64,000 nucleotides of DNA. It comes from Roseivivax sediminis (GTDB lineage Bacteria > Pseudomonadota > Alphaproteobacteria > Rhodobacterales > Rhodobacteraceae). The notes beneath the pieces are model-generated. The model did not search any database. It saw nothing but the letters and a program-made list of their open reading frames with translations, and was not told where the DNA came from. The stretch lies in assembly GCF_900112685.1 (NCBI RefSeq), contig NZ_FOMS01000002.1, forward strand, positions 434,001 through 498,000. The letters are read 5' to 3'. Positions 1,455-49,156 of the stretch are shown piece after piece. Numbering within the stretch: position 1 is the first letter of the stretch; every line of letters starts with the position of its first letter. A program made the position numbers and the translations under genes.

Positions 1455-1607
1455 GGCGGTCTTCCTTACCCGGTGAAACGTGCAAGCGGCGATAGCACCG
1501 GGGCACGCGGGGGGACAGGGGCCGCTCGCGCTTGCGTGAGCCGAAAAGGCGTTGATCGGCTCACGCGCCCCCCTATCCTGCGCGCGTCCGTGTGTTCGGG
1601 AGGTTTC

Positions 1608-5737: not shown

Positions 5738-6952
5738 CTATTCCGACTCCCGAACGCGGCAAATCTCCTCCGCGAGGAGTTCGGCGCCGAGGCTGGAGCG
5801 GAAATGCGCCTCCACGTGGGCGCGGGCGGCGGCGCTGAGCTGGCGCGCGTAGTCGGGTTTGCCGGCGAAATCGCGGATCGCGCGGGCGAGCACGCCGGGG
5901 TTCTGCGGCGGCACCAGGATGCCGGTATGGCCGTCGCGGATCAGCTCTCGCACGCCGCCCGAATCGGTGCCGAACACCGGCACGCCGCAGGCCATCGCCT
6001 CCATGTAGGCCACGCCGAGAGGTTCGTGCCAGCTTGCCAGCACGAAGGCGTCGGCGGCCATCAGCTTCGCCTTCACCTGGTCCGCGTCGATCGCCCCCAG
6101 CAGCTTCACGTGATCGCGCAGGTGCAGCTGCTTGAGATGCGCCTCGAGTTCCCTGCGGTAGCCGGTGCCGCCGGCGTCGTCCTCGCCGGCGATCTCGAGC
6201 CGGACGTCGACGCCCATGTCCAGAAGCTGGCGCATTGCGGTCATCAGGTCCTGGTGGCCCTTCACCACGTTGAGCCGCGCGCAGGAGAACAGACGCATCG
6301 GCCGGCCGTGGCTCACCGGCTCGTAGGGGGCGGCGCGCTTGAGAACCTCGGTGTCGACGCCCATCGGGCGGACGCGCACGCGCCCGGGCAGGTCGGGGCC
6401 GAGCGCCTCCGCGGCCTCGTCGCGCAGCTTCTCGGTGATCACCGTGGCGAAGGCCGCGCGCTGCCACTTGAAGCGCTGGCCGGATCCGTAATCGGACAAG
6501 GGCCCGTGCAGCGTCAGCGAATAGCTCGGCCCGCCCATGCGTTCGGCCAGCGCGGCGATGAGCGCGGCGCGCCCGCAGGAATGCACGTGAACATGCTCGA
6601 TCCCGTCCTCCTGCGCGGTGCAGCGCAGTTGCCAGGCGGCGGCGAGCGTCAGCAGGACGTCCCGCGAGAAGGAAAAGCCGCCTTTGAGCATCCACATGTA
6701 GAGCCCGCGCGGCAGCAGCTCGCTCAGCGTGCCGATCGCGGCCACGGGATCGAGCCGGTCGAGATAGGTGGTGCGAGCCATCGCCGCATCCGACCAGCCA
6801 TGCGCGATCAGCCCTTCGGGCGGCTTTCGGGTGGACAGAAGTCGCACCTCATGCCCCAGCCGCTCCAGCGCGTCGATCTCGCGCCAGAAAAAGATGTGGG
6901 TTTGCCCCGGAAACTGGGGCACTAGATATCCGATCCGCAAGGGTCGGGTCAC
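5738..6952 (-). CDS. GT4 family glycosyltransferase
   Basis: A 404-residue retaining glycosyltransferase with the two-domain GT-B fold. The N-terminal half starts RIGYLVPQFPGQTH. The C-terminal half carries the donor-sugar pattern of GT4 enzymes: SCARLNVVKGHQDL, then the E-x7-E region ASWHEPLGVAYMEAMACGVPV and GGVRELI. It adds a sugar from a nucleotide donor to a lipid-linked or nascent glycan on the cytoplasmic face; donor and acceptor are unknown. The start is GTG. It is divergent from the GT2/flippase/PKS operon, with 132 bases between the two starts, which suggests a shared control region. It marks the left edge of the polysaccharide locus. Confidence 0.9.
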   Translation of the reverse strand: MTRPLRIGYLVPQFPGQTHIFFWREIDALERLGHEVRLLSTRKPPEGLIAHGWSDAAMARTTYLDRLDPVAAIGTLSELLPRGLYMWMLKGGFSFSRDVLLTLAAAWQLRCTAQEDGIEHVHVHSCGRAALIAALAERMGGPSYSLTLHGPLSDYGSGQRFKWQRAAFATVITEKLRDEAAEALGPDLPGRVRVRPMGVDTEVLKRAAPYEPVSHGRPMRLFSCARLNVVKGHQDLMTAMRQLLDMGVDVRLEIAGEDDAGGTGYRRELEAHLKQLHLRDHVKLLGAIDADQVKAKLMAADAFVLASWHEPLGVAYMEAMACGVPVFGTDSGGVRELIRDGHTGILVPPQNPGVLARAIRDFAGKPDYARQLSAAARAHVEAHFRSSLGAELLAEEICRVRESE

Positions 6953-7084
6953 GACAACCGCCTGTCTATGAGTGTTCTGGATGTGCAGCGTCCCAGGATG
7001 TGCCCGAGGGTCCCCGATTTTTCATCAATTGGCCACACTGGGCTGGCATGTCGCCGGGGCCGCTGTGGCTGAAAATCCGCGAGT

Positions 7085-7960
7085 GTGACCCGTTTGAACC
7101 ACCTTCCCGAGTCCGTCCCGCCCGGGCGTCCCGCGCTTGCGGTGATCCTGCCCGCCTCGAACGAGGCGCGGCTGATCGGTGCCTGCCTCGATGCGCTGGT
7201 CGCCTCCTCCGCCGTGCCGGGCGGGGCGGAAATCGTGGTGATCGCCAATGGTTGCCGGGACGATACCGCCGGGCGCGCCCGGGCCTACGCGGGCGTCTTC
7301 GCGGCGCGGGGTTGGCGGCTCGAGGTGATCGAGCGGGCGGACGGCGGCAAGCTCGCGGCGCTCAACGCCGGCGATTCGGCGGCGACCGCGCCGATCCGGG
7401 TCTATCTCGATGCCGACGTGACGGTCGCGCCGGACCTTTTGCCGGCGCTGGCCGAGGCGCTGGACACGCCCGCGCCACGCTACGCGTCGGGCACGCTGGC
7501 CATCACTGCGCCGCGCAATTGGGCCAGCCGCGCCTATGCCCGCATCTGGGCGCAGGTGCCTTTCATGTCCACGGACGTGCCGGGATGTGGACTCTTTGCG
7601 GTGAACGCAGCGGGGCGGGCGCGCTGGGGCGCCTTTCCCGACATCATCTCCGACGACACCTTCGTGCGCCTCAACTTCGCCCCGGCCGAGCGCGAGGCGG
7701 TGCCGGCGCTCTATCGCTGGCCCATCGCGGAGGGGCTGGCGGCACTCGTCCGCGTGCGTCGGCGGCAGGATCGGGGCGTCACCGAGATCGCGGAGCGTTT
7801 TCCGGCACTTCTGGCCAACGACAACAAGCCGCCGTTCCCGCCGGCGCGCAAGTTGCGACTCGCGTTGCGGGACCCCGTGGGCTTCGCGATCTATTCCGGC
7901 GTGGCGCTCGCGGTTCGGCTGACGCCGTCGCGGGCACAGGGCTGGAGTCGCGGGCGATGA
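7085..7960 (+). CDS. GT2 family glycosyltransferase
   Basis: A 291-residue inverting GT-A enzyme. It opens with the GT2 nucleotide-binding strand AVILPASNEARLIGACLDAL, continues with GGKLAALNAGD and has the metal-binding YLDADVTV (DxD-like). A later SDDTFVRLNF fits the acceptor/catalytic-base region. No long membrane segment is seen. The GTG start is chosen because it is the first candidate and leaves a normal upstream spacer; no strong ribosome site is visible. Its stop overlaps the next gene's ATG (ATGA), so it is translationally coupled to the flippase gene and probably acts on the same lipid-linked sugar. Confidence 0.85.
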   Translation: MTRLNHLPESVPPGRPALAVILPASNEARLIGACLDALVASSAVPGGAEIVVIANGCRDDTAGRARAYAGVFAARGWRLEVIERADGGKLAALNAGDSAATAPIRVYLDADVTVAPDLLPALAEALDTPAPRYASGTLAITAPRNWASRAYARIWAQVPFMSTDVPGCGLFAVNAAGRARWGAFPDIISDDTFVRLNFAPAEREAVPALYRWPIAEGLAALVRVRRRQDRGVTEIAERFPALLANDNKPPFPPARKLRLALRDPVGFAIYSGVALAVRLTPSRAQGWSRGR

Positions 7961-9327
7961 TCGGCGCTGGACCCTTCGCGCGGCTGCGCGGCACGTCGCT
8001 GACCGCGCGGGCGGTCCGGTCCTCGCTATTATCGGTCGGCGGCTTCGGCACGGCGCAGATGCTGCGCCTTCTGTCCAACCTGGTGCTGACCCGGCTGCTC
8101 TTTCCCGAGGCGTTCGGCCTGATGGCGCTGGTCAGCGTGTTCATGACCGGGCTGCAGATGTTCTCGGACGTGGGCGTCACGCCCGCGATCATGCAGTCCA
8201 GGCGCGGCGACGACCGCGATTTCCTCGACACTGCGTGGACCATCCAGGTGATGCGCGGCGCGGCGCTGACGGCGGTGGCGGTCGGTCTCGCCTGGCCGAT
8301 GGCCTGGGTCTACGACGAGCCGATGCTGGCGCAGCTTCTGCCGGTGGCGGGGCTCACGCTGCTGATCTCGGGCTTCAACCCGACGCGGCTCGACACCGCG
8401 GGACGGCATCTGCTGATCGGGCGGGTCACAGTGATCGAGGTGGTCTCGCAGGTCGCCGGGCTGATCGTGGCGATCGCGCTGGCCTGGGCGCTGCAATCGG
8501 TCTGGGCGCTGGTGATATCGGGCCTCGTGAGCGCGGCGGTCAAGCTGGTTCTGCTCGACCGGTTCCTGCCCGGTGCGCGCAACCGCTTCCGCTGGGAAGG
8601 CCCGGCGGCGACAGAACTCATCACCTTCGGAAAGTGGATCTTCCTGTCGACGGTCTGCGGGTTCCTGTCGCATCAGGGCGACAAGCTGATCATCGGGCGG
8701 TACCTGCCGCTGGACCTCTTCGGGGTCTACAATATCGGCTATTTCCTTGCCTCCTTCCCGATGCTGCTGGGCACGATGGCGGTGGCGAAGGTGCTGATCC
8801 CGATCTACCGCGAGGCGCCCCCGACCGAGAGCCGCGCGAACTTCCTCAAGCTGCGCAAGATGCGAGCGTCGGTAACCGTGTCGCTTCTGGGATTGCTGGC
8901 GGTAGCGGCGCTGCTGGGGGTGTGGGCGGTCGATCTGCTCTACGATCCGCGCTACGCGCAGGCCGGTGCGGTGGTGGTGATCCTCGCCCTTGCCGGTATC
9001 CCGCAGATCGTCGCGCTGACCTACGATCAGGCGGCGTTGGCGGTCGGGGATTCCCGGCGGTTCTTCGTGCTGGCGCTGGCCAAGGCGGTGATCACCATCG
9101 CCAGCCTCGTCATGGGTCTGGAACTCGCGGGGCTGCTGGGTGCGCTGGTGGCGCAGGGCGTCGCGCATCTGGCGGTCTATCCGGTCGTGACCTGGCTGGC
9201 GCGGCGGTCGGGCGCCTGGGATCCGCTGCACGACGTGCTGGGCTATGCCGCCGGGGTGGGAATCATCGCGCTGGCGCTCTGGCTGAACGGTCCGGAAATC
9301 CTGGCGCTCGCGGCCGATTCCGGCTGA
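7957..9327 (+). CDS. Wzx-type polysaccharide flippase (MOP family)
   Basis: A 456-residue membrane protein with about 12 hydrophobic segments, typical of the Wzx/RfbX branch of the MOP exporter superfamily. It opens with a short basic stretch and then the GTAQMLRLLSNLVLTRLLFPE signature shared by oligosaccharide flippases; GDKLIIGRYLPLDLFGVYNIGY is another family-like stretch near the middle. It would move an undecaprenyl-linked repeat unit, or a lipid-linked product, to the periplasmic face. It overlaps the preceding GT2 gene by four bases. A Wzx implies a Wzx/Wzy-type system, but no Wzy polymerase is recognisable in this window. Confidence 0.88.
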   Translation: MIGAGPFARLRGTSLTARAVRSSLLSVGGFGTAQMLRLLSNLVLTRLLFPEAFGLMALVSVFMTGLQMFSDVGVTPAIMQSRRGDDRDFLDTAWTIQVMRGAALTAVAVGLAWPMAWVYDEPMLAQLLPVAGLTLLISGFNPTRLDTAGRHLLIGRVTVIEVVSQVAGLIVAIALAWALQSVWALVISGLVSAAVKLVLLDRFLPGARNRFRWEGPAATELITFGKWIFLSTVCGFLSHQGDKLIIGRYLPLDLFGVYNIGYFLASFPMLLGTMAVAKVLIPIYREAPPTESRANFLKLRKMRASVTVSLLGLLAVAALLGVWAVDLLYDPRYAQAGAVVVILALAGIPQIVALTYDQAALAVGDSRRFFVLALAKAVITIASLVMGLELAGLLGALVAQGVAHLAVYPVVTWLARRSGAWDPLHDVLGYAAGVGIIALALWLNGPEILALAADSG

Positions 9328-9518
9328 CTCGGGGCGCGTCGAGCGGGCGGCTTCGGAAACAATTCGCGCCGGGTTCGATATTGTGCGGGCGATGCGGACA
9401 GTCTCGCTGCGGTTCGGCTTGATTTCGTCCAGATCGGGATTTGATAACCAAAAATTGCCGCATTTCACGCGCATGTGCTGACGGCATTCGGACTCGAGCC
9501 GGTAGGATGATTTCGAGC

Positions 9519-12500
9519 ATGAACGATCGACCTGAAGCCAGCGATACAGACATCGCCATCGTCGGCATGGCCGCGCATCTGCCGGGCGCCGAGAATATCG
9601 CCGCCTACTGGCGCAACCTGCGCGACGGCGTCTCCTCCATCCGCCGGATGTCCGAAGAAGAGCTGATCGCGGCCGGGGAGCAGCCGGGCCTGATCCGCCA
9701 TCGCAACTACGTGCCCTATGCCGCGCCGCTGGACGGGTTCGAGATGTTCGATGCGGACTTCTTCGGCCTGTCGCCCAAGGACGCCGCGATCATGGACCCC
9801 CAGCACCGCCGGTTCCTCGAAACCGCGTGGGAGGCGCTGGAAACCGCCGGCCACGTGCCTGATGGCTTCGGCGGGCGCATCGGCGTCTTTGCCGGCTGCG
9901 GGATGGGGTCGTATTTCTACGTCAACGTCTGCTCCAACCCCGACCTGGTGGAGCAGACGGGCATGTTCCTGCTGCGCCATACCGGCAACGACAAGGACTT
10001 CATGACCACGCGGCTCAGCCACGTGCTGGACCTCACCGGGCCGTCGATCAACCTGCAGACGGCGTGCTCCACCTCTCTGGTGGCGACGCATTACGCGGCG
10101 CAGGCGCTGCTGAACGGCGAATGCGACATGGCGCTTGCCGGCGGTGTGACGATCGAGCTGCCGCAGGGCCGCGGCTACCTCTACAAGGAGAACGAGATCC
10201 TGTCGCCGGACGGCGCCTGTCACGCCTTCGACCACCGCGCACAAGGGACGGTGTTCGGCTCCGGCGCGGGGGTCGTGGTGCTGCGCCGGCTGGCGGACGC
10301 GATTGCCGACGGCGACTACGTCTGGGCGGTCATCAAGGGCAGCGCGGTCAACAACGACGGCGCGGCGAAGGCGGGGTACCTGGCCCCATCCGTGGACGGG
10401 CAGGCGGCGGCGGTGGCAGAGGCGCTCGCGGTCGCGAACGTCACCGCCGACACGGTGTCCTACGTCGAATGCCACGGCACAGGCACCTATCTGGGCGATC
10501 CGATCGAGGTGTCGGCCCTGACCCAGGCGTTCCGGGAGACGTCCGATGGCGTCGGCGCCACGCGGATCGGGTCGGTGAAGACCAATATCGGCCATCTCGA
10601 CACCGCCGCCGGGGTCGCGTCGCTGATCAAGACGTCGCTGGCGCTGCACAACCGCCAGATGCCGCCGTCGCTCGGCTTCGAAAAACCGAACCCGGCCATC
10701 GACTTCACGTCCTCGCCGTTCCGCGTGAGCGACCGGCTGACCGACTGGCAAAGCGCCGGCCCCCGCCGTGCCGGCGTCAATTCGCTGGGCGTGGGCGGGA
10801 CCAACGCGCACGTGGTGCTGGAAGAGGCGCCGGCGCGCGAGGCGTCGGCCGAGCCGGCGTTCCCGTTTCAGATCCTAACCCTGTCGGGTCGGTCGAAAGC
10901 CGCGCTGGATGCCAATGCCGCGCGGCTTGCCGGGCATCTTCGGGCCAGCCCCGAGCAGCCACTCGCGGACATCGCCTTCACGCTGAAAGAGGGCCGCCGG
11001 GCGTTCGAAAAGCGCCGCGTGATCGTCGCGGAGACCCACGAGGAGGCCGCGCGCCTGCTGGAGGCCGGCGATGCCCGCCGCGTCCACGACCACCAGGCGC
11101 TGGAGGCGCCCGACGTCGCCTTCCTCTTCCCCGGCGGCGGCGCGCAATATGCCGGCATGGCGCGCGATCTCTACGAGACCGAACCGGTCTTTGCCGAATG
11201 GATGGATCGCGGCCTCGATCGCCTCGCCACCCTGACCGGGGAGGACCCGCGGCCGGTGCTGTTTCCGGATGGTGACACGGACGCGGCGAACGCGCGCCTG
11301 CTGACGCCGTCGGTGCAATTGCCGCTGATCCTGATCGTGGAGGTCGCCCTCGCCGAGCTGTGGCAGAGCTGGGGGGTGATGCCCGCTGCGCTCGCCGGTC
11401 ATTCGATGGGCGAGAACGCGGCGGCCTGCGTCGCGGGGGTGATGACCTTCGAGGATTGCATCGGCCTCGTGCACCTGCGCGGCACGCTCTTCGACAGCGT
11501 GCCAGAGGGCGGGATGCTGTCCGTCGCGCTGCCGGCCGACAAGCTGCGGGAGCGGCTGGGCGAGGATCTCGACCTCGGGGCCGAGAATGCGCCGGGTCTG
11601 TCGGTCGCGACCGGGCCGAAGGCGGCGCTGGACCGGCTGCAGGCGGAGCTTGACGCAGAGGACATCGAGAGCCGCCGCATCGCCATCGACATCGCCGCGC
11701 ACAGCCGGATGCTCGATCCGATCCTCGATGAGTTTCGGGCGTATCTTCAAGGTATACAACTGAGCGCGCCGAAGATCCCGCTCACCTCCAACCGCACCGG
11801 CACATGGATGACCGAGGCGCAGGCGACCTCGCCCGATTATTGGGTCGAACACCTGCGCCATACCGTCCTATTCGCCGATTGCGTCGGCACGATCGCCGAG
11901 GAGGGCCGCATCCTTCTGGAGGTCGGGCCGGGCAAGGCGCTGTCCTCTCTCGCGCGCCAGCACGGGGAGGTCACCGCCAATGCCGTCCTGTCGAGCCTGC
12001 GCCACCCCGAGGAAGAGATCGCGGACGACCGCTATTTCCTCGAAGTGCTCGGCCGGCTCTGGGCGCTGGGATACGAGGCCGACTGGGCGCAGGTCTGGGG
12101 CGAGGGGCGGCGCAACCGCGTGCCGCTGCCGACCTATGCCTTCCAGCGCGCCGCCTATTTCATCGCGCCCGGAGAGGCGCGGGACGCGCCGCAGGAGACG
12201 TTCCTGACCCGCACCGACGACGTGGCGGGCTGGGGCTGGGCCCCGGTCTGGCGCCCCCGCGGCGCGGAGGTGGAGGTCGACGTCGAACACGCGCTGTCGG
12301 AGGCGGAGCCGCAGACCTGGCTGTTCTTCATGGACGAGGCGGGCGTCGCAGAGGCCGCCGCGACGCGCCTGCGCGGTGCCGGCCACACGGTGATCGAGCT
12401 GCGCGCCGGCGACATGTTCACGCGGATGAGTGACACCAGCTACCTCATCGCGCCGGAGCGGGGGCGCGAGGGCTATGACCTTCTGATTCAGGACCTCGTG

Positions 12501-15500
12501 CGGCAGGGCCACGTGCCCTCGCGCATCGGTCATTTCTGGCTGGTGACGGAGGGTGAGGGCCACCGCCCCGGATCGAGCTTCTTTCACCGCCTGCAGGAGC
12601 AGGGGTTCTACGCACTGATGTTCCTCGCGCAGGCCATCGCCGACGAGGCGCTGCCGCGTCCGCTGCAGGTCACCGCCTTCACCAACGGCGCCGCCCGCGT
12701 GCGCGACGAGGCGCTGCCCTATCCCGCGAAGGCGACGCTCGCCGGCCCCGCCCGCGTCATCCCGCGCGAGCTTCCGGGGGTCCATGTGACCACCTGCGAC
12801 CTCGCGTTGCCCGCCCGGTCCCGCAAGCGGGGCATGGACGAGGCGCTCGTGACCGGCGTGCTGGAAGAACTGTTGTCGGAGCCCGGTGATCGGATCGCCG
12901 CCTTGCGCGCCGGGCGGCGCTTCGAACGCGCGGTGAAACCCCGCGCGCTGCCCGATGCGCCGCTGCCGGAGGCCAGGGTGGTCCTGCTTACGGGGGGCTT
13001 CGGCGGGATCGGCCTGACCCTCGCCCGGGCCTTCGCGGACCGGGGCGCGAAGATCGCGCTGATTGCGCGGGGCGGCCTGCCGGATCGCGCCGACTGGGAT
13101 CTCTACCTCAAACGTCACGCGCCGCAGGACCGCACTGCGCGCCGGGTCCGCGCCGTGCAGGCGCTGGAAGAGGCCGGGGCGGAGGTGCTGTGCCTCGCCG
13201 CCGACGTCTGCAACGAGGACGAGATGCGCGCCGCCGTGGCCGAGGTGGAGGCCCGCTTCGGCCGGATCGACGGCGTGATCCACGGCGCTGGCGTGATCGC
13301 CGACGCCCCGCTTCTGGCCAAGACCCCTGCGAGCGTGGAGGACGTGTTCACGCCGAAGATCCACGGCACCGATGTGCTGGGCCGCATCTTCCCGGACGGC
13401 GCGCTCAAGTGGATGGCGCTGTTCTCGTCCTCCTCCACTGTCACCGCGCCGGCGGGGCAGGTCGATTACGTCGCCGCGAACGAATACCTCAACGCCTTCG
13501 CCCGCGCGTGGGCGGGCGGCGCAACGCGCGTCGTGGCGCTGAACTGGGGCATCTGGTCCGAGGTCGGCATGGCCGCCGAAGCGGTGGCCGAGCGCACCGG
13601 CGAGACGCGGGAGGCGCCGAGGACCGCGACGGGCCTGCCGCTGCTCGACACCGCCAGTTTCGATCGCGACGGGCGGCGGATCTTCGACACGCGCCTGTCC
13701 GAAGCCGACTGGATCATCGACGAGCATCGCACCGCCGCCGGGGAGGCGCTGCTTCCGGGCACCGGGTCGCTGACGCTCGCCGCGCATGCGCTGGCGGCGC
13801 AGGGCGAGGGCACGTCGTTCGAGATCCGCGACCTGACCTTCCTGCGCGCGGTCGCCGTGCCCGAAGGCGGTGCCCGCGACATCCGCGTGCGGCTGACGCG
13901 CGACGATGCGGGCTACGGGTTCGAGCTTCTCGCGGGCGCCGAGGCCAGCGGCAAGCGCGGCTACGCGCTCGCCGCGCAGGGCAGCCTCGCGCTGGCGCCG
14001 ATGGCGCCGCCGCGTCCGCTGAACCTTGCGGCGCTCCGCGCCCGGCTCGGCGCGCCGCAGGAAAGCGCCGAGGGCCGCAAGCTGCGCACAGGGCAGGAGG
14101 TGCACTTGAACTTCGGCCCGCGCTGGCGCGTGCTCGACCGCCGCGCGCACAAGGACGGCGAAGGCCTGGCGGAGCTGTCGCTGCCGCTCGAGGCACAGGA
14201 AGACGGGTGCCTCCTGCATCCCGCGCTTCTCGACATCGCGACCGGCTGGGCGATGGAGCTGATCGAGGGCTACCGCCCGACGCATCTCTGGGTGCCGGTC
14301 TCCTACGGGCGCGTGCGCGTTCACGGCACGCTGCCGGCCCGGATCGTCAGCTGGGTGCGCAATGCCGGCGACAACCGCGGCGAGGGGGAAAGCGCCCGCT
14401 TCGACGTCACGGTCGCGGACCCGGACGGCACGGTGCTTATGGAGATCGAGGGCTTCACCCTCCGCAAGCTCGCCGATCCCGCGCGGCTCGCCGCGCCGCC
14501 GCGCCTGAGCGCGGCCGAGATCGAGACGGGTGCCGCCCCCGGCCCGCAGCCTCTGTCCCCGGCCGAGGAACGCCTCGCCCACAACCTCACGCAGGGTATC
14601 CGCCCCGAGGAAGGCGCGGGCGCCTTCGCGCGGGCCATGGCGCTCGGCGCGCCGCAGGTGGTGGTGTCGTCCATGGACCTCGCCGCGCTCACCCGGCAGG
14701 CCGCCGCGAGCACGGAGGCGAAGCCCGGCCAGAGCTTCGAGCGGCCCGAGCTCGACAGCGATTACGCCGCGCCGGAAACCGACGTGGAAAAAACGCTCGC
14801 CGGCTTCTGGGAAGAGCTTCTGGGCGTCTCCCGCGTCGGGGTGGAGGACAGCTTCTTCGATCTCGGGGGCCACAGCCTGATCGCGGTGCGGCTCTTTGCG
14901 ATGATCCGCAAGGCCTACCGTGTCGACTTCCCGATCTCGATCCTCTTCGAGGCGCCCACCATCCGCGCCTGCGCCGCGCTCATCGCCGACCGCACCGGCG
15001 CCACCGACGCGCCCGCGCAAACGCGGCCCGAACGGCGGTTCAAACACCTCGTCGCCATGCATGACGGCGAGGGCGGGCCCAAGACGCCGTTCTTCCTTGT
15101 CGCCGGCATGTTCGGCAACGTGCTGAACCTGCGCCACCTCGCGCACCTTCTGGGCGCGGACCGGCCGTTCTACGGCCTCCAGGCCAAGGGGCTCTACGGG
15201 GACGAGGCGCCGCACGCCACGCTGGCCGAGGCTGCGAGCGACTACATCGCAGAGATGAAGCAGGTGCAGGCGCATGGCCCCTACCTCGTCGGCGGCTTTT
15301 CGGGCGGCGGCATCACCGCGTTCGAGATTGCGCGCCAACTCGAGGCGATGGGCGACGAGGTGGCGCAGGTCGTGCTGCTCGACACGCCCCTGCCGCAGCG
15401 CCGGCCGCTGTCGCGCCGCGACCGCGCGATCATCCAGTGGCACGAGTTGCGCCGGAAGGGTCCGGCCTACCCTGTCACCTGGGCGAAGAACCGCATCGCG

Positions 15501-16906: not shown

Positions 16907-16911
16907 AAGCC

Positions 16912-21435
<4,524 letters not shown>

Positions 21436-23141: not shown

Positions 23142-23153
23142 GCCGCGGCTCAG
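23138..23153. terminator. Palindrome spanning two convergent stops
   Basis: The perfect palindrome CTGAGCCGCGGCTCAG includes the stop codon of the wzz-like gene on one strand and that of the cpsD-like gene on the other. It could fold as a six-base stem with a CGCG loop and act as a bidirectional terminator. No T-run follows, so the role is uncertain. Confidence 0.4.
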
Positions 23154-24427: not shown

Positions 24428-24609
24428 CCCGGTCTGCCCCTCGATACGGGCACGATCACATCCGTGCCGGCATGCGGTCGGCACCCGATGCGACATGCGG
24501 CCAGCCGCATTGCATTAAGGTCTTTTGCTTCCACCTCATTCACCACGAAATGACGTCAAGAATAGGGCCGAAAGGCGGGGATTGTCGACGACCCGTGGCG
24601 TGCCGGCGA

Positions 24610-26697
24610 TCAAAAGCCGAAGAGCCCGGCGCGATCGACGGCCTTCAGCAGGAAGGCCTCGCGGCTGGACTCGGGCCGCCAGCCGAGCACCTCTTTCGGC
24701 TTGTCGTTGGCAAAGCGCGAGAGGTGCGCGCGGCTGATCCAGTCCGCGCGCGTCGGCCGGATCACGTTCGCCCGCCCCAGCGCGTGCCGCTTCAGCATCG
24801 CCTTGATTGCGTCCGCCGCCCAGAACGCCGTGAGGTTGCCCGAGGAGACCCGGATCTTCGCGCCAAGACGGTCGTGGATGGCGCGGAAATAGCCGCGCGC
24901 GGACAGCATCGGCTCTCCGATCAGGTTGAAGTCCTCCCCGAGCGCGGCGTCGCTGCGGGCCATGAGGATGAGCCCGTCCGCCACGTCGTCGTTGAGCACG
25001 AAGGGCAGGATGTTGTCGCCCGATCCCCAGATGCGCACCGCGCCGGCGCCGTGCCAGCGCCCGATCCCCCAGTGCTGGAGTGGCCCGCCGGGACCGACCA
25101 CGATGCCGGGCCGCGCGATGGTCAGAGGCAGGCCGCGGTCGCGGTGCATCGCCGTCAGCCGGCGCTCGCATTCCGCCTTGGACCGGGCGTAGAGGTTGCG
25201 GCCCGTCATGTCGCCCGGAAAGCCCGTCGTCTCGGTGATCGTCGCGGCGGGGTCCGACATGTCGTAGCTGGCGATCGTGCCGGTGTAGACGAGGCGCGAC
25301 ACCCCCGCCTCCAGCGCCGCCTCGGCGATGGTCACCGCCGGCTTCACGTCGTTCTCGAGGCAATCCTCCCACGAAGTGCCAAGCGCGCGGGCAAGGTTGT
25401 AGACCTCCGAGATCCCGTCCATCGCCTGCACCAGCTGCGCGCGATCCTTGAGCGACACGCCCACCGTCTCCACATTGTCCGGCAGGTCGGGGAAGGGGCC
25501 GTGGCGGCCGCGGGATAGGACGCGCACATCCGTGCCCCCGGCGACCAGCCCGCGGGTCAGCGCGCGGCCGATGAAGCCGGTGCCGCCGATCACCAAAGCC
25601 GTGGGACGCGGCGCACGGGTGGCGACCGCCGGCGCCTTGGGCGTGAGTTTCTCCGCCGGCACCAGCGCCAGTGCGTCGTCGAGCGCCTGCATGGCCTGTA
25701 CGGCCGCCTCCGCGCTGTACCTGCCGTCCTCCGCCGCGCCGTAGATCGCCGCGCACATCCCCCGGAAGCTCTGCGCATAGGGGCCCCTGGTGTTGAGCGA
25801 CCTGGTCTGGATCCAGCCATTCCGCAGCCCTTCGCGGGCGTGCTGGCGCGCGAGGTCGAGCTGCCGGCGCAGCGGGTTGACCACGAGGTCCGAGGCGTTC
25901 TCGCGCTCCACCACCAGCGTGTCGGCGGCGAAATCGAGCCGCGCGCGCCCGGAAGAGCCGCGCAGGGTGACGGAGCGGTCGTCGACCGTCTCCACCATGC
26001 TCAGCGTCAGTGTCACGTCGACATGGCCGGCACGGGCGAGGATGCGGATGGATTGCGGGCGCGGGTCATCCCCGGGCAGCATCACCGGCTTCGAGACGTC
26101 CGTGGCGATCACTTCCAGCGGGCCGAACAGGTCGACCGCGAAGGCCGCGAGGTGCGGGCCGAGTTCCAGCAGCAGATTCCTCGGCTCGCGCAGGAGCCAG
26201 ATGTTGTAGGGTCCCGACCGAAGTGGCGCGAGCGGCAGCGCCCATGTGACCTCGATCCCCGAGACGCGGCCGAGATCGCCTTGTCCGATCATCCGCTTCA
26301 GCCGGTCGTAGGATGGCAGGCCGAGGAAGTTGTGTCCGGGCGAGAACCGCGCGCACGAGGCCGCCGCGGCGGCGGCGAGCTGGCGGGTTTCCTCGGCGTT
26401 CTCGGCGACCGGCTTCTCGATCAGCACGTCGAGCCCGGCCTCCAGCGCCTGCAGGCCCAGGGCCAGGTGCAGATGCGGCGGCGTCAGGATGTGCACCGCG
26501 TCGCAGGTGCGGCTGTCGATCAGTGCGTCCAGCGAGGCGAAGACCGGCACGCCGCTTGGCTCTGCCAGCGCCTGCGCGGCGCCATCCGAGGGGTCGCAGA
26601 TCGCCGCGAGGGTGGCGCCTTGCGTGGCGCCGATCGCGTCCGCGTGCCAGCTCGCGATGTAGCCGGCGCCGACCAGGCCGATGCGTTTGGGACTCAT
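24610..26697 (-). CDS. Fused Gfo/Idh/MocA oxidoreductase and SDR epimerase/dehydratase
   Basis: A 695-residue bifunctional protein. Residues 1-345 are a Gfo/Idh/MocA NAD(P)-dependent sugar oxidoreductase: Rossmann motif GLVGAGYIASWHADAI, the catalytic-lysine EKP string, and a GPHLAAF region in the second domain. Residues about 358-695 are an extended SDR of the NAD-dependent epimerase type: GGTGFIGRALTRGL, VYTGTIASYD and the YARSK (YxxxK) catalytic pair, then a C-terminal region seen in nucleotide-sugar epimerases. Both active sites look intact. It likely performs sequential oxidation and reduction or epimerisation of a nucleotide sugar for the surrounding glycan. It is last in a five-gene minus-strand operon, seven bases after the GT2 gene. 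The fusion is notable because the same operon also encodes separate MocA and SDR proteins. Confidence 0.9.
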   Translation of the reverse strand: MSPKRIGLVGAGYIASWHADAIGATQGATLAAICDPSDGAAQALAEPSGVPVFASLDALIDSRTCDAVHILTPPHLHLALGLQALEAGLDVLIEKPVAENAEETRQLAAAAAASCARFSPGHNFLGLPSYDRLKRMIGQGDLGRVSGIEVTWALPLAPLRSGPYNIWLLREPRNLLLELGPHLAAFAVDLFGPLEVIATDVSKPVMLPGDDPRPQSIRILARAGHVDVTLTLSMVETVDDRSVTLRGSSGRARLDFAADTLVVERENASDLVVNPLRRQLDLARQHAREGLRNGWIQTRSLNTRGPYAQSFRGMCAAIYGAAEDGRYSAEAAVQAMQALDDALALVPAEKLTPKAPAVATRAPRPTALVIGGTGFIGRALTRGLVAGGTDVRVLSRGRHGPFPDLPDNVETVGVSLKDRAQLVQAMDGISEVYNLARALGTSWEDCLENDVKPAVTIAEAALEAGVSRLVYTGTIASYDMSDPAATITETTGFPGDMTGRNLYARSKAECERRLTAMHRDRGLPLTIARPGIVVGPGGPLQHWGIGRWHGAGAVRIWGSGDNILPFVLNDDVADGLILMARSDAALGEDFNLIGEPMLSARGYFRAIHDRLGAKIRVSSGNLTAFWAADAIKAMLKRHALGRANVIRPTRADWISRAHLSRFANDKPKEVLGWRPESSREAFLLKAVDRAGLFGF

Positions 26698-26704
26698 GGC
26701 AGTC

Positions 26705-27673
26705 TCACTTGTATTCGATCAGGCGCATCGGCGCGCGGCGCGCGCGGCGCAGGTGGAACCGCGCCATGCCGATCAGGTTGGGAAACTTGGATAGCGTCAG
26801 GAGCAGGCCGAGGACGCGCGCCGAGCGCGGATTGAGGCCGTCCCGCCGCAGCCCCGCCGCGCTCTTCCACCAGTTCAGCGGATAGGCCAGCAGAACGACA
26901 AGCGCGAGCCAGGGCGACAGCGCCGCCGCGACCAGCGCGGCCACGGGCACAGCCAGCCCGTAGACCAGCGCGCGCCGCCGCTCGGTAGCGAAATACTCGG
27001 GATGCAGTTGTCCGACCTGCGCGAAACCGTGCCCCGTCCGCTCCGCCCGTCGCCACCACTGGCCGAACCGCGTCATCGCGGCGTCGTGGCGCGTCATCTC
27101 CGCCGGCAGCCGTTCCAGCCGCCAGCCGGCTTTCCTGAGGCGCGTGCAGAACTCGTCGTCCTCTGCCGCGATCACGGTCGGGTCGAACCCGCCGAGCGCC
27201 TGAAACGCGCCGCTCCGGACCATCATGTCGCCGCCGCAGGCCGCGATCTCTCCGGCCGGGCGGCGCCATTCCCAGTGGCACAGCCGGTTGTATGGGCTCG
27301 CCTCGGCATGAATTTCCGCCCGCCACCCGGTGACGAGCGCGGTCTCAAGGCGGGCGTCCAGATGCGCTGCGGCCTGCCGGGTCCAGCCGTCCACGATGGC
27401 GCAGTCGCCGTCGATGAACTGAATGTAATCGGGCGGGTCCACCGCCAGCACCCGCGCCGCGCCGGCGTTGCGGGCGCGGGCGGCGGTGAACGGCACCGAC
27501 AGGTCCAGCGTCACGATCTCGGCGCCCGCCGTGTGCGCGGCATCCAGGCTGCCGTCGGTAGAGCCCGAATCGACATAGACGATGCGCCGCGCCTGGCCCT
27601 CGGCCGCCGCCAGCGCGGCGACGAGCCGCGCGCCTTCGTTGCGGCCGATCAGGACGAGGTCGACCACGCTCAT
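26705..27673 (-). CDS. GT2 family glycosyltransferase, membrane-anchored
   Basis: A 322-residue GT2 enzyme: LVLIGRNEGARL, IVYVDSGSTDGS, AARARNAG and YIQFIDGDCAI (DxD-like), followed by AAEDDEFCTRLRKAGW. Residues about 238-262 form one or two hydrophobic segments, so it may sit at the membrane. The start codon overlaps the preceding GT4 stop (ATGA). Donor and acceptor are unknown. The motifs are strong and the operon context fits glycan assembly. Confidence 0.87.
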   Translation of the reverse strand: MSVVDLVLIGRNEGARLVAALAAAEGQARRIVYVDSGSTDGSLDAAHTAGAEIVTLDLSVPFTAARARNAGAARVLAVDPPDYIQFIDGDCAIVDGWTRQAAAHLDARLETALVTGWRAEIHAEASPYNRLCHWEWRRPAGEIAACGGDMMVRSGAFQALGGFDPTVIAAEDDEFCTRLRKAGWRLERLPAEMTRHDAAMTRFGQWWRRAERTGHGFAQVGQLHPEYFATERRRALVYGLAVPVAALVAAALSPWLALVVLLAYPLNWWKSAAGLRRDGLNPRSARVLGLLLTLSKFPNLIGMARFHLRRARRAPMRLIEYK

Positions 27674-28917
27674 GCTTCCGGCTCCGGCCGTTTCGGCGGC
27701 GCCTCGCCGCCCGCGTAGGCCCGGATAAGGGCCGACAGGCGCCGCGCCTCGCCCCCCGCGTCGTAGCTTTCCGCCACCTTCGCACGCCCGGCCGCACCCA
27801 TGCGCGCCCGTGCCTCCGGATCGTCCAGCAGCGTGCCGATCGCGTCCTGTAGCGTCGCGCCGTCCCCTGGCGCGACGAGTCGGCCGTGCACGCCGTCCTC
27901 CACCAGTTCCGGCACTCCGGCGATGCGCGTGGTCACCACCGGCACCTGCGCCGCCATCGCCTCCATCAGGACCACCGGCACGCCCTCGGCGAAGCTCGGC
28001 AGGACCAGCATATCCGCCTCGCGCAGCGCCTCGGCCACCTCCGCCTGACCGCGAAAGCCGAGGAAGGCGCAACGCTTGGCGATGCCGAGCCGCGCCGCCT
28101 GCGCCTCCAGCGCCGCCCGCTCCGGCCCGTCGCCGATCAGGGTGAGCCGCAGCTCGGGCCGCTCCGGGGCCAGCGCCGCCAGTGCGTCGAGAAGGAGCGG
28201 CACGCCCTTGACCGCCGCGAGCCGCCCGACGAACAGGAGGTGCTGGCCGGGCGCGGGCCGGGCGCCGTCGTAGCGCGCCGGGTCGACGCCGCAATGCACG
28301 ACGTGCAGCCTCGGCCAGCTCTCCTGCGGGGCAAAGCACATCAGCTGCGAGCGCGCGAAATCCGAGATGCAGGCGACGAAGCGCGCGCGCCGCGCCTTTT
28401 CGTCGATGCGCCAGTGCTCGGGGGCAAAGAAGATGTCCGGCCCGTGGATGGTGAAGCTGTAGGGCAGGCCCGACAGCGCCGAGGCCAGCATCGCCACCGT
28501 GCAGGAGGCCTTGGCAATGTGGTTGTGCAGGTGGGTGACGCCCCGGTCCGCCAGATGCGCCGCCAGCACCCCGGCCTCCGCGAAATAGATCAGGTTGTAA
28601 AGGTGCCCGCGCAGCCCCGCCGGCGCCGTGCGCCAGGCGAGGCGCAGCGCCGAGAGGTAGCGCCCCGGCGACCGCATCCAGCGCGCATGCGCCGCGATCA
28701 GCCGCCCCGGCCGCTTCGCCGCCTCCAGAACGTGAAAGGTCGCCGCCTGTTCCGCGCGCTGCTCGGGTCCGACGAGGTGTTCGCCCCCCGTGCGCCGGAT
28801 GGAGCAGGTCAGGACCTCGTGCCCGCAGGCGCGCAGGCCCGCCACCTCGCGCTGGATGAACGTGTCCGAGGCGCGGGGGTATTCGCCGGTAAGGTAGGCG
28901 ATCCTCGGCGGGCTCAT
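27670..28917 (-). CDS. GT4 family glycosyltransferase
   Basis: A 415-residue GT-B glycosyltransferase. It opens IAYLTGEYPRASDTFIQREV, contains HNHIAKASCTVA and SFTIHGPDIFF, and has the GT4 donor region LLFVGRLAAVKGVPLLL followed by SFAEGVPVVLMEAMAAQVPVV, holding the E-x7-E pattern. It is related in architecture to the GT4 at 5738-6952 but clearly a different enzyme. It overlaps both neighbours by four bases, so it is tightly coupled within the operon. Confidence 0.9.
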   Translation of the reverse strand: MSPPRIAYLTGEYPRASDTFIQREVAGLRACGHEVLTCSIRRTGGEHLVGPEQRAEQAATFHVLEAAKRPGRLIAAHARWMRSPGRYLSALRLAWRTAPAGLRGHLYNLIYFAEAGVLAAHLADRGVTHLHNHIAKASCTVAMLASALSGLPYSFTIHGPDIFFAPEHWRIDEKARRARFVACISDFARSQLMCFAPQESWPRLHVVHCGVDPARYDGARPAPGQHLLFVGRLAAVKGVPLLLDALAALAPERPELRLTLIGDGPERAALEAQAARLGIAKRCAFLGFRGQAEVAEALREADMLVLPSFAEGVPVVLMEAMAAQVPVVTTRIAGVPELVEDGVHGRLVAPGDGATLQDAIGTLLDDPEARARMGAAGRAKVAESYDAGGEARRLSALIRAYAGGEAPPKRPEPEA

Positions 28918-29849
28918 CCGAACCGCTCCTCGAACGTGCCGCGGTCACGCTCCGGGAAGGCGGCACGCAGCCGGGCGTTGGACCAGTGGTACGGCGCCAT
29001 CCGGGCGCGTAACGCGCGCTCCCGCAGGAGGCCCGGCCGCCCCGGCCAGCCTGCCAGCGCCTTCGCGGCGGGCAGGAGCAGCGGCCAGGGCAGGGGAGCC
29101 ACCGCCGTCGGCCAGCCGGTGCGGCGGAGCGCGGCGAGGTAGCGCCCCCGGTCCGGCAGGTCGTCGTCGAGAAGGTTCAGCACCGTCACGCCGTCGCCCG
29201 CCGTGCCGGCCGCGTCCAGAAGCGCGCGCGCCGCCCGGTCACGGTGGACCAGCGGCAACGTTCCTCCGCGGCCGAGCCGCAACAGAACCGGTCCGGCCCT
29301 GACGCCCAGATGCGCGTTCCAAAGCCGCCCCGGCCCGTAGACCGCCCCGGCCCGCAGGATATGCGCCGACCGGCCGGGCGCCGCCGCCCAGTCCCGCACC
29401 AGCGCCTCTTGCGCGATCTTGGCACGGGCATAGGTGTCGGCTGCGGCGGCCTCCGTTGCGACGGGCGTGTCCTCGTCGACCGCGCTGCCGGGCGGCAGAG
29501 CCGCAACGTCGTAGACCGCGGCCGACCCGACCAGAACCAGTCGCGCGACCCCCGCGTCGGTCATCGCGCGCAGCAGGCGCTCCGTCGCGCGCAGCGTGTC
29601 GCGGGCATGCACTTCAGTGTCCCCGCCCATATGCGCCGCCGCGTGTATCACCGCGTCCGCGCCGCGCAGCGCATCCGCCAGTTCCGGTCCAGAATCGGCG
29701 AGGTCGCAGGCCACGACGTCCGCATCGAGCTCATCCGCCCGGCGCGCCAGCGCCGTCGCCGCGATCCCGCGCGCCCGCGCCTCGGCCAGCACCGCGCGGC
29801 CGAGGAAGCCGCCGGCGCCGGTCACCGCGATGCGGCCTAGCGCGCCCAT
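28914..29849 (-). CDS. NAD-dependent epimerase/dehydratase (extended SDR)
   Basis: A 311-residue nucleotide-sugar SDR: the Rossmann motif TGAGGFLGRAVLAE, LVLVGSAAVYDV with the catalytic Ser/Thr region, then YARAK as the YxxxK pair and RAGAVYGPGRLW. It would epimerise, dehydrate or reduce a nucleotide sugar. It overlaps the upstream MocA gene by 13 bases and the downstream GT4 by four. It is paralogous in role to the SDR half of the fused protein at 24610-26697. Confidence 0.87.
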   Translation of the reverse strand: MGALGRIAVTGAGGFLGRAVLAEARARGIAATALARRADELDADVVACDLADSGPELADALRGADAVIHAAAHMGGDTEVHARDTLRATERLLRAMTDAGVARLVLVGSAAVYDVAALPPGSAVDEDTPVATEAAAADTYARAKIAQEALVRDWAAAPGRSAHILRAGAVYGPGRLWNAHLGVRAGPVLLRLGRGGTLPLVHRDRAARALLDAAGTAGDGVTVLNLLDDDLPDRGRYLAALRRTGWPTAVAPLPWPLLLPAAKALAGWPGRPGLLRERALRARMAPYHWSNARLRAAFPERDRGTFEERFG

Positions 29850-30967
29850 GGCATCGGCTCCATCGGCGCGCAGCGCGTGGTCATCGCCTGCGCGCCCGAG
29901 GTCTCGCCCGCGTACTGGATCGCCAGCGTCACCTCGGTCAGATGCACGGCGTAGTCGCCGGCGATGCGCGACGGGCGGCCCGCGCCGATCGCCTCAAGCA
30001 TTTCCACCGGGCCGAGCAGGAAGTTCATCGCCGCCGCGCCCCAGCGTTTCACCTTCGGATGCGTCCGCCCGGACAGGCGGTGGCGGCGCGGCCAGGGGCT
30101 TTCCATCAGCTTGCGGCGCAGGGTCAGGCGGCGACGGTACGTGACCTGTGCCGCGTTGTCCCATGCGGAGCGCGTCTCCAGCACGCCGCCATCGCCGATC
30201 ACCCGGATGCGGTGGTCGTGCGGTGCGACGATGGAACATGTGAGCCGCGTGACCGGCCCGTCCTCGAAGAACAGCGTGGCGACCGAGAGGTCGGCGGCCA
30301 TCGGGCCCGTGCCCTCCTTGCCCGGGATCGTCTCGGCCGAGGCGGCGACGACCGTGCGGACCGGCCCGAACCAGGCGATCAGCCAGGACAGGTAGTAGCC
30401 CGCATGCTCCAGCGTGCAGCCGGTGCGGAACTCGTCCTCGAACGGCCAGGGCGCGCCGCTTTCGGTGATCCACTTGCGGTAGGCTGCCTGCGGCACGAAC
30501 CCGTCGTCGAGCTCCGCGTAAATCGCGCGCGGCGTGCCGGCGACGCCCGTCCGGATCGCGTGCCCGAGCGTCTGTGCCGCCTCGCCCAGCACCGAACAGG
30601 GGGCGGAGCCGAGCTGCAGCCCGGCGGCCTTCGCCCGCTCCGACAGATCGCGCGCGGCGGCGGTGTCGAGCGCGAGCGGCTTCTCGCAATAGACGTGGTG
30701 CCCGGCGTCGATGCAGGCGGCGTTGATCTCGTGATGCGCGGCCGGGTTGGTGAGGTTCAGTACCAGTCCGTCTGCCGGCGTGGCGGCCAGCGCGGCGTCG
30801 AGGCTCTCGGCCGCGGGCAGGTTCCAATGCGTGCAGAAGGCGCGCAGGCGGTCGGGATCGCGATCCCAGACCGCGGCAACCCGCAGATCGGGATAAAGCG
30901 GCAGGGCGCGCGCGTAGAGATCGGCGACGAACCCGGCGCCGATCAGGGTGATCGTGCCGTCGCTCAT
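29837..30967 (-). CDS. Gfo/Idh/MocA family oxidoreductase
   Basis: A 376-residue NAD(P)-dependent oxidoreductase, first gene of the minus-strand glycan operon. It begins ITLIGAGFVADLYARAL (Rossmann) and has YCEKPLALD with the catalytic lysine, then a longer C-terminal domain with GCTLEHAGYYLSWLI. It likely oxidises or reduces a nucleotide sugar. The frame continues upstream of 30967 into the divergent promoter region, but the chosen ATG matches the family N-terminus. The 277 bases between this start and that of the WecG-like gene hold the divergent promoters. Confidence 0.87.
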   Translation of the reverse strand: MSDGTITLIGAGFVADLYARALPLYPDLRVAAVWDRDPDRLRAFCTHWNLPAAESLDAALAATPADGLVLNLTNPAAHHEINAACIDAGHHVYCEKPLALDTAAARDLSERAKAAGLQLGSAPCSVLGEAAQTLGHAIRTGVAGTPRAIYAELDDGFVPQAAYRKWITESGAPWPFEDEFRTGCTLEHAGYYLSWLIAWFGPVRTVVAASAETIPGKEGTGPMAADLSVATLFFEDGPVTRLTCSIVAPHDHRIRVIGDGGVLETRSAWDNAAQVTYRRRLTLRRKLMESPWPRRHRLSGRTHPKVKRWGAAAMNFLLGPVEMLEAIGAGRPSRIAGDYAVHLTEVTLAIQYAGETSGAQAMTTRCAPMEPMPWAR

Positions 30968-31180
30968 GGGACCTCGCGCGCGTTTCGTGCGGCCTGTCTC
31001 CGGCTCATCTGCCTGTTCCGATTCGAATCGTGCCGTCGCTGCGCGCAGCCAGACCACCGAATAATGGCTCAAATGCGACGTATGTTCATCCGCGTGCACA
31101 ATCTGCGCCCGGACGGGGGCATCGTTTCGCGGATCTCCGGGTAATACGGAAAACTCGGGCGGGAATCGTCAAAACGTGTC

Positions 31181-31214
31181 ACGCGCCGCCGTAATATGCT
31201 ATCCGGCGGCGCGT
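31181..31214 (+). promoter_or_regulatory. Inverted repeat upstream of the WecG-like gene
   Basis: A perfect 11-base inverted repeat, ACGCGCCGCCG and CGGCGGCGCGT, with a 12-base AT-rich loop, ending 30 bases before the WecG-like start. A second dyad CCGTAAT (31189-31195) / ATTACGG (31224-31230) overlaps it. It could be a leader hairpin or an operator in the divergent promoter region; which one cannot be told from sequence. Confidence 0.45.
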
Positions 31215-31244
31215 TCATGCCACATTACGGGGTGCCTGACTGCG

Positions 31245-32009
31245 ATGCAATTCACGATTCAAGGCCACCGATTGACTGTCAACATGACGGGCTGGGCGAT
31301 CCTGACGGAAGAAGTCGGCCGCCGGCTCGATGCGCGTGAGGGGTTTGCGCTCGCGACGCTGAACCTCGATCACCTCGTAAAGCTGGCGCGTTCGGAGACG
31401 TTCCGCGCGGCCTATGCGGCGCAGGATCTGGTGACGGCGGACGGCAACCCGATCGTCTGGATGTCGCGCCTCGCGCGGCGGTCGGTCGACCTCATCCCCG
31501 GTTCGGACGCGATCGTGCCGCTCGCGCGTCTCGCGGCGGAACGGGGCGTGCCAGTGGCGTTCGTCGGCAGCACCAAGCCAGCGCTGGACGGCGCCGCGGC
31601 TTGTCTGGAGCGTCTCGTGCCCGGCCTGACGGTCGTCACGCGTCTCGCGCCGCCGATGGGGTTCGATCCGGACGGTGCCGGCGCCGAGGCCGTTCTTGCC
31701 GAACTGGAGGCCAGCGGCGCGGGCCTGACCTTCGTTGCGCTGGGTGCACCGAAGCAGGAACGCTTCGCGGCGGCGGGTCGTCAGAGGCTTCCGCAGATGG
31801 GCTTCGCCTCTATCGGGGCGGGGCTCGATTTCTTCGCCGGCACCCAGGAGCGCGCGCCGCGCTGGGTGCGGCGCATGGCGCTGGAATGGGTCTGGCGCAT
31901 GGCATCGAGCCCGCGGCGCCTGGTGCCGCGCTACGCCGCCTGCGCCGCTGTCCTGCCGGGCCACGCGCTGCGCGCCCTGCGGCAGCGCTGGCGGATGCCG
32001 GCGGTCTAG
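31245..32009 (+). CDS. WecG/TagA/CpsF family glycosyltransferase
   Basis: A 254-residue GT26 enzyme, the WecG/TagA family that transfers a sugar (for example N-acetylmannosaminuronate) onto a lipid-linked acceptor at the inner face of the membrane. Family patterns present: LNLDHLVKLAR, TADGNPIVWMSRL, PGSDAIVPLA, VGSTKPAL, LGAPKQERF and SIGAGLDFFAGTQERAPRW. No signal peptide is present; the enzyme is usually membrane-associated. It is divergent from the glycan-modification operon and closes the polysaccharide locus on the right. Its TAG stop overlaps the TAG stop of the convergent gene within the tetranucleotide CTAG. An upstream in-frame ATG at 31176 is less likely. Confidence 0.9.
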   Translation: MQFTIQGHRLTVNMTGWAILTEEVGRRLDAREGFALATLNLDHLVKLARSETFRAAYAAQDLVTADGNPIVWMSRLARRSVDLIPGSDAIVPLARLAAERGVPVAFVGSTKPALDGAAACLERLVPGLTVVTRLAPPMGFDPDGAGAEAVLAELEASGAGLTFVALGAPKQERFAAAGRQRLPQMGFASIGAGLDFFAGTQERAPRWVRRMALEWVWRMASSPRRLVPRYAACAAVLPGHALRALRQRWRMPAV

Positions 32010-47375: not shown

Positions 47376-47379
47376 GGCG

Positions 47380-48216: not shown

Positions 48217-48227
48217 GGAGTTCCCTC

Positions 48228-49139: not shown

Positions 49140-49156
49140 CAAGAGAGGAGACCAAG

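Follow-up and report, generated by a model that had tools for sequence, protein, structure and literature searches.

Why would a polyketide synthase (PKS) and an apparent non-ribosomal peptide synthetase (NRPS) lie among the genes of a surface polysaccharide? The question is raised by a 64,000-nucleotide stretch of Roseivivax sediminis (contig NZ_FOMS01000002.1, positions 434,001 to 498,000, in a genome of 4.62 Mb), which was analysed at its full length and is called the window here. Three of its genes follow one another on the + strand, viz. a type I PKS recognised by its domain matches (9507-15908, start codon inferred), a GT2 glycosyltransferase identified by domain match (15905-16906) and an NRPS-like gene (16912-21435). 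A first-pass annotation of the letters alone had placed these between a Wzx flippase and a Wzz-type regulator, all in one direction, with the glycosyltransferase overlapping the PKS by four bases; we find all five genes on the + strand and the GTG start of the GT2 gene overlapping the PKS stop by 4 bp. The same annotation had offered an acyl-peptide-decorated glycan or a glycosylated lipopeptide as the product, and here our reading departs from it. The sequence comparisons support the view that the conserved PKS/GT2/NRPS-like block belongs to surface-polysaccharide loci, and we give an even chance to its being a dedicated sub-pathway of a Wzx/Wzz-type exopolysaccharide (EPS) system, to which it would supply a C4 acyl group.

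The NRPS-like protein as a predicted glycine starter module

Pfam and NCBIfam matches divide the NRPS-like protein into a formyltransferase (FT) domain (Formyl_trans_N; 16912-17800, +), an adenylation (A) domain detected in two parts (AMP-binding), a monooxygenase (MOX) inside this A domain and a peptidyl carrier protein (PCP) domain (PF00550; 21121-21312, +). The MOX (PF00296; 19165-20115, +) belongs to the FMN luciferase-like monooxygenases of MupA/Atu3671 type, with 470 bits to TIGR04020 where the cut-off is 244; it is placed between A4 and A5, so that an AMP-binding stretch lies on either side of it, and its closest counterpart in the PDB is PuwE (319 bits). The stretch between the FT and A domains has no Pfam match at E<=1; its AlphaFold2 model of 210 residues is confident (pLDDT 95.5), and a Foldseek search with this model gives NRPS condensation domains as the top matches (E 9.6e-9, TMq 0.65, among the best 50 of 407). 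It is read here as a degenerate condensation (C) domain (17797-18426, +) of about half the size of a complete one (median 220 residues), and a motif scan found HHxxxD missing in 87 of 87 aligned NRPS-like proteins. A model of the FT and half C domain together is also confident (pLDDT 94.1), with the FT part matching methionyl-tRNA formyltransferase and ArnA in fold. The catalytic N, H and D of the FT are invariant in the same 87 proteins, and so is the GGHS motif of the PCP.

It may be noted that the residues of the A-domain code were positioned by eye from the motifs. The nine-residue code reads DILQxGM[I/V]W in 87 of 87 proteins, that of the window included, the variants being DILQMGMIW (52 proteins), DILQFGMIW (16, which is the code of the window), DILQLGMIW (14) and others (5). 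In the passages of a 2025 survey that bear on this point (PMC12283262), all four Gly-A-MOX domains carry DILQLGMIWK; the published code DILQLGMIW is thus found exactly in 14 of the 87 and with one change in the remaining 73. Because of this match glycine is the predicted substrate of the A domain. Taken by its sequence, the protein is one initiation module without a usable C domain, and since it combines one A domain of glycine code with an FT, an embedded MOX and a half C domain, it should start a chain and not form a peptide bond. The label of NRPS given at first is therefore to be narrowed to a single FT/half-C/A(Gly)/MOX/PCP initiation module.

The polyketide synthase partner

The PKS is one module, KS-AT-KR-DH-ACP-TE, with the thioesterase (TE) last. 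A residue check over 79 proteins with a length of 1,900 aa or more, the PKS of the window among them, found the motifs TACS, HGTGT and GHxDTAAG of the KS, GHSMGE of the AT, GGHS of the ACP and GxSGGG of the TE in 79 of 79, and the active-site S and Y of the KR and the H and D of the DH are kept just as completely. Departures are seen in the cofactor loop of the KR, which is GGLGDLA in 2 proteins and has its last G replaced by A in 4. There is no separate enoyl reductase domain in the PKS, PF13561 matching the KR stretch only. Its best NCBIfam match is the general type I PKS model (953 bits, below the cut-off), followed far below their cut-offs by Pks13 (594 bits) and Pks2 (559 bits), which are mycobacterial lipid PKSs, and by PfaA (322 bits); the PDB chains nearest to KS-AT are 8xju, 7zma, CurL and DEBS (among the best 60 of 239).

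Since there is a single PKS module with KR and DH, the predicted product is a C4 unit if the enzyme is non-iterative, and not a lipid. The earlier description of a full PKS needs to be qualified in that there is a single module which ends in a thioesterase. Neither of the two products proposed at first, the acyl-peptide decoration and the glycosylated lipopeptide, is supported: one A domain, a half C domain, the missing HHxxxD and one PKS module make a peptide or lipopeptide unlikely.

Pairing and gene order across genomes

A nearby sample of 41 genomes was searched, made up of the window's own, 8 from its genus, 16 from the family and 16 from the class. Full-length matches to the NRPS-like protein occur in 11 of these, and the PKS is present in the identical 11; 7 further NRPS matches are partial and fall on other A domains, and 2 further PKS matches cover KS-AT only. 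A copy of the block also occurs in Roseivivax marinus (NZ_FOAI01000001.1). In one of the 11 both genes are in pieces, through decay or assembly errors (G017:C3:516553-528498), and in another of them (G006) the PKS match contains one stop.

A second sample took a single genome from each of 248 genera in the family, and is less biased than the locus set described below. Here FT-NRPS was found in 85 genera and the C-terminal part of the PKS in 88, both proteins occurring together in 84, a single one in 5 and neither in 159 (Fisher p 4e-60, kinship ignored), which makes the pairing near-obligate. The discordant genomes are one with the FT only (G168) and four with the PKS only (G052, G121, G142 and G182). 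The PKS lies no more than 12 kb away at 82 of 88 FT places, upstream and on the same strand at 81, and in 72 of the 82 the gap between the two matches is 0.94-1.10 kb, which is the length of the GT2 gene.

The locus set consists of 86 fetched loci, of which 6 are plasmid loci (9 of the 29 records matched in the plasmid search were examined) and 80 are the best of at least 566 relatives, so that it is biased to close relatives. Gene order was counted in the 86 sequences that have both genes, i.e. 85 of these loci and the window. The GT2 gene lies between the PKS and NRPS-like genes, with all three on one strand, in 84 of the 86; the two exceptions (L022 and L023) come from Hyphomicrobiales and have a divergent PKS. 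The block is seen in Rhodobacterales, in some Hyphomicrobiales and in Hydrogenophaga. Pairwise distances, computed without correction for phylogeny, correlate between the NRPS-like protein and the PKS with a Spearman value of 0.83, and between the NRPS-like protein and Wzz, GT2 and Wzx with 0.72, 0.62 and 0.55, respectively.

The three Hydrogenophaga copies (L064, L068 and L069; Betaproteobacteria) have 56-57% identity, which suggests horizontal transfer, and two of the three are metagenome-assembled genomes. A second and different NRPS gene lies near the block on a Paracoccus plasmid (L021:680-4558), with a distant match of 27% identity in one of the Hydrogenophaga loci (L069:20922-24662).

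Linkage to surface-polysaccharide genes

A tblastn search over the 86 loci found a phosphopantetheinyl transferase (PPTase) in 77, Wzz in 60, Wzx in 53, CpsD in 47 and WecG in 42, counts that are lower bounds as the flanks are mostly 10 kb. At least one Wzx, Wzz, CpsD, WecG, sugar-transferase, export or ligase gene is present in 83 of the 86, a count that stands without matched control loci and for which the WecG test below serves as the control. The remaining three are a short contig (L078), a locus with glycosyltransferase and MocA/epimerase matches (L092) and L090, the sole long locus without a match to any of 13 polysaccharide queries, where a ManC-type gene directly precedes the PKS and acyltransferase-like genes lie further downstream. 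In the genus sample WecG/TagA (PF03808) occurs in 81 of 85 carriers of the block against 33 of 163 non-carriers, and it lies within 30 kb of the block in 70 of the 85, where about 1.5 would be expected (assuming 4-Mb genomes and a target of 61 kb per WecG gene). A distant Methylobacterium copy (44% identity) likewise stands beside two GT4 genes, an epimerase and a protein that matches Wzz weakly, at 25.0 bits where the cut-off is 25.5.

Conservation across Rhodobacterales had been named as the check on whether PKS, NRPS and glycan genes are linked, and it shows the block to be kept, and kept in polysaccharide loci. The interleaving noted at first thus goes beyond chance, and chance adjacency of the block and glycan genes is ruled out by the co-occurrence and WecG linkage counts. 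The same counts largely rule out that the PKS/NRPS pair and the glycan genes move independently; independent carriage is mostly not what is seen, with one clear exception, L109, an Aliiroseovarius plasmid locus treated in the next section.

Proposed pathway and its alternatives

In the pathway that we propose, the NRPS-like protein would adenylate glycine and load it onto its own PCP. The FT would cap the amine to give N-formylglycyl-S-PCP, the smallest possible acyl-glycine, and the embedded MOX would hydroxylate the glycine C-alpha, as in the Gly-MOX modules of myxothiazol, melithiazol and solanimycin. This is one coherent reading of the combination of FT and MOX: in a protein without a working C domain, the FT could supply the acyl-glycine that would serve as the MOX substrate. 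In passages of three papers (PMC10204066, PMC9396620, PMC11342130), a MOX in a glycine A domain is described as hydroxylating the C-alpha of acyl-glycine, the hydroxyglycine being retained in solanimycin B and the N-C-alpha bond being broken in myxothiazol-type modules, which leaves glyoxylate on the carrier. The outcome here would likewise be N-formyl-alpha-hydroxyglycyl-S-PCP or, on loss of formamide, glyoxylyl-S-PCP. The PKS would then accept this starter, add one malonyl unit, reduce and dehydrate it, and the thioesterase would release or transfer a C4 acyl group of the 4-formamido-4-hydroxycrotonyl or 4-oxocrotonyl type. This group would be attached either to a sugar precursor or to the repeat unit, and export would follow. 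An order of action from the NRPS-like protein to the PKS is suggested by the lack of a working C domain, by the TE on the PKS and by the PKS gene lying directly downstream of the FT-A-MOX-PCP gene in L107 (Methylobacterium) and in L109; the exopolysaccharide as acceptor we infer from gene linkage alone. We propose only tentatively, and consider improbable, the more specific idea that about one in three of the Rhodobacteraceae genera sampled builds a surface polysaccharide bearing a small reactive acyl group (a 4-oxocrotonyl aldehyde or one derived from N-formyl-alpha-hydroxyglycine) through a glycine-cleaving oxidation of the myxothiazol type at the start of the assembly line.

Several findings weigh against this pathway or against its tie to the polysaccharide. 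In 15 of the 85 carriers the contig shows no WecG at a distance of up to 30 kb; of these genomes 7 are split into at least 250 contigs and 8 into only 30-90 (G109, G110, G168, G203, G209, G241, G266 and G268), and a WecG match is missing altogether in 4 of the 15. The distances of the NRPS-like protein track those of PPTase (Spearman 0.35) and WecG (0.30) poorly, and because of these low values the two neighbours may have been exchanged independently. No PPTase is found in the block of the window (gap 21436-21776) or in L025; two PF01648 genes lie elsewhere in the genome of the window. No glycan acyltransferase common to all loci was found. In sequence the FT scores up to 67 bits against tRNA and sugar formyltransferases and no more than 31 bits against LgrA. 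In L109 the FT-A-MOX-PCP gene stands before a larger KS-AT-KR-DH-ACP-C-A-PCP-TE gene, and no EPS or polysaccharide genes were found in the 15-kb flanks. Lastly, passages of a study of necroxime (PMC7318616) describe an oxygenase acting on a glycine primer that leads to an oxime, and because of this the MOX may have a chemistry other than the one proposed.

As for L109 itself (L109:13480-27219), its FT-A-MOX-PCP protein has 42% identity and the same glycine code, and its neighbours are nos genes, a VPLPA-CTERM protein gene and xrtD.

The necroxime case leads to a variant in which the block and its exopolysaccharide role are the same and the MOX oxidises the glycine nitrogen. N-hydroxyglycyl-PCP would then turn into an oxime or, on formylation, into an N-formyl-N-hydroxyglycyl (hadacidin-like) unit, and the glycan would carry an oxime or a hydroxamate able to bind metal. 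The module begins the chain as that of necroxime does, in whose assembly line the oxime is proposed to be made on the glycine primer by an oxygenase domain, and a hydroxylamine could be the group that the FT formylates, as happens in hydroxamate siderophores. In lobatamide, too, an oxime comes from an oxygenase acting on a glycine primer. However, the A code and the insertion of the MOX in a glycine A domain fit the C-alpha-hydroxylating modules, the MT domain of the necroxime module is missing here, and the best PDB relative, PuwE, acts on an acyl chain. In listings of the open-access literature no link between such modules and hadacidin or N-formyl-N-hydroxy units was found. We regard oxidation at the nitrogen as unlikely.

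Nor is it probable that the product is a free small molecule for secretion, such as a signal, an antibiotic or a siderophore, and that the block shares only export or regulation with the EPS genes. A TE at the end of the PKS can hydrolyse, L109 is a related line outside an EPS locus, such pairs have been annotated as orphan NRPS-like/T1PKS clusters, and 15 of the 85 carriers lack a linked WecG. Against this stand the presence of core polysaccharide genes at 83 of the 86 loci, the WecG linkage in 70 of 85 genera and the glycosyltransferase that 84 of 86 sequences have between the PKS and NRPS-like genes. Very improbable is the production of a lipid or acyl anchor of the polysaccharide by an iterative PKS, as in capsule loci with PKS/FAS genes (Burkholderia wcbR, Rhizobium rkpA) and as the distant Pks13, Pks2 and PfaA matches might hint, for the top NCBIfam match is the general type I model, the nearest KS-AT chains are those named above, the partner is a glycine starter module and a separate enoyl reductase domain is missing.

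Comparison with known systems

The gene pair has very probably been catalogued before. Passages of PMC10584327 report for Roseibaca domitiana an orphan NRPS-like/T1PKS hybrid biosynthetic gene cluster (BGC), with an NRPS of 4,527 nt and a PKS of 6,333 nt about 1 kb apart, a type found in 18 of 37 species; judged by size, order and taxon only, this is very probably the same pair. The genes Inhi_1972/Inhi_1974 of Phaeobacter inhibens, from passages of PMC4062626, are perhaps another instance, going by the gene numbers alone. The passages of PMC10584327 give no domain-level product model and no polysaccharide link, the words 'exopolysaccharide' and 'glycosyltransferase' occurring 0 times in its text, and no link of the gene pair to polysaccharide was found in the open-access literature searched, which omits most subscription journals. 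The view of the first-pass annotation that this is not a described system therefore agrees with those passages as regards the polysaccharide link, and fails for the gene pair, a matching one being on record as an orphan hybrid BGC.

The Gly A-MOX modules of myxothiazol, melithiazol, solanimycin and crz-like systems have, in the published passages, a MOX in the glycine A domain, as here. Judged by the TIGR04020 membership of its MOX, the insertion in the A domain and the glycine code, the present module is probably of this kind. The known modules elongate or end a chain, whereas here the FT replaces a working C domain and the module should only start one. The initiation module of linear gramicidin, LgrA (FT-A-PCP), is the second precedent, and the present protein likewise has a formyltransferase with intact catalytic residues fused to A and PCP domains. 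LgrA chains are among the Foldseek matches of the half C domain (best 50 of 407). LgrA is not known to have a MOX or, in its first module, a half C domain, and its FT is only weakly alike in sequence (31 bits at best).

Among polysaccharide loci, the Wzz, kinase and A domain of the window match families associated with XrtA/PEP-CTERM exopolysaccharide loci, all below cut-offs. XrtA loci carry an adenylating enzyme, the acyl-CoA ligase TIGR03098, the place of which is taken here by a full PKS and the FT-A-MOX-PCP protein. The PKSs of Burkholderia wcbR and Rhizobium rkpA also lie within a surface-polysaccharide locus and are thought to make lipid anchors; we know of no FT-A(Gly)-MOX-PCP partner in those capsule loci. 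Each of the domains taken singly is already known, as are PKS genes within capsule loci; the combination of FT-halfC-A(Gly)-MOX-PCP with one PKS module tied to EPS loci appears to be new.

The module is carried by about a third of the genera sampled (85 of 248). If the proposed pathway is true, a large and mostly marine group of bacteria relies on PKS/NRPS reactions for the chemical character of its matrix, with possible effects on adhesion, cross-linking, metal binding and phage or host contact. Orphan hybrid BGCs of Rhodobacteraceae would then have been misread as secreted-drug clusters, their assembly-line chemistry serving EPS structure and not a secreted natural product. It would also follow for the enzymology that FT and MOX act on a glycine starter, formylation creating the acyl-glycine that the oxygenase needs.

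Other genes of the locus and the window

Upstream of the block lie a GT4 glycosyltransferase (5738-6952, -; exopolysaccharide glycosyltransferase EpsE, NF041876, 623 bits against a cut-off of 400), for which a loose GT4 search finds relatives in 53 of the 86 loci and whose tight family covers 22 loci and the window, and the Wzx-type MOP flippase (8035-9327, +, start approximate as the reading frame is open from 7000; PF13440 E 5.8e-51, NF007773 below cut-off). Downstream come the Wzz-type chain-length protein (21777-23141, +; TIGR03007-like at 120 bits against 279, Pfam Wzz 24.5 bits against 25.5) and a CpsD/Wzc-type tyrosine autokinase (23150-24496, -; TIGR03018 and TIGR01007, both below cut-offs). 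Domain matches then identify a GFO/IDH/MocA oxidoreductase fused to an NAD-dependent epimerase (24610-26697, -), a GT2 glycosyltransferase (26708-27664, -), an NAD-dependent epimerase/SDR (28914-29849, -) and a second GFO/IDH/MocA oxidoreductase (29837-31099, -), with a GT4 glycosyltransferase (27670-28917, -; EpsE family, 221 bits, below the cut-off of 400) among them. The last gene is a WecG/TagA/CpsF glycosyltransferase (31176-32009, +; PF03808, TIGR00696 above cut-off and an EpsA-like match below that cut-off). All the flanking glycan genes listed at first (glycosyltransferases, MocA, SDR, CpsD and WecG-like) are thus located. With Wzx, Wzz/Wzc-type proteins, whose matches are below cut-offs, and WecG or sugar-transferase glycosyltransferases, the locus is by its gene content probably of the Wzx/Wzy-dependent EPS type.

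A candidate Wzy family, present in 39 of 86 loci, has one member (L020:26382-27872) that matches Wzy_C at 24.3 bits, below the cut-off, and no member of it lies within the window. Another family, its proteins some 330 aa long, is found in 26 of the 86 loci (for example at L020:25309-26247) and not in the window, and has its median position just downstream of the NRPS-like gene; two of its members match DUF4886 weakly, below the cut-off, and it is a candidate glycan acyltransferase or esterase.

At 129-4634 (+) the window encodes a protein of 1,501 aa with a C-terminal RTX calcium-binding repeat, which is perhaps an EPS-associated surface protein. Apart from the window, members of its loose family (median 651 aa) occur in 43 of the 86 loci, where they mostly lie some 13 kb upstream of the NRPS-like gene. 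Far downstream, at 45990-49624, a cyanate lyase gene comes after NMT1-like and ABC transport genes, all unrelated to the PKS/NRPS-like block.

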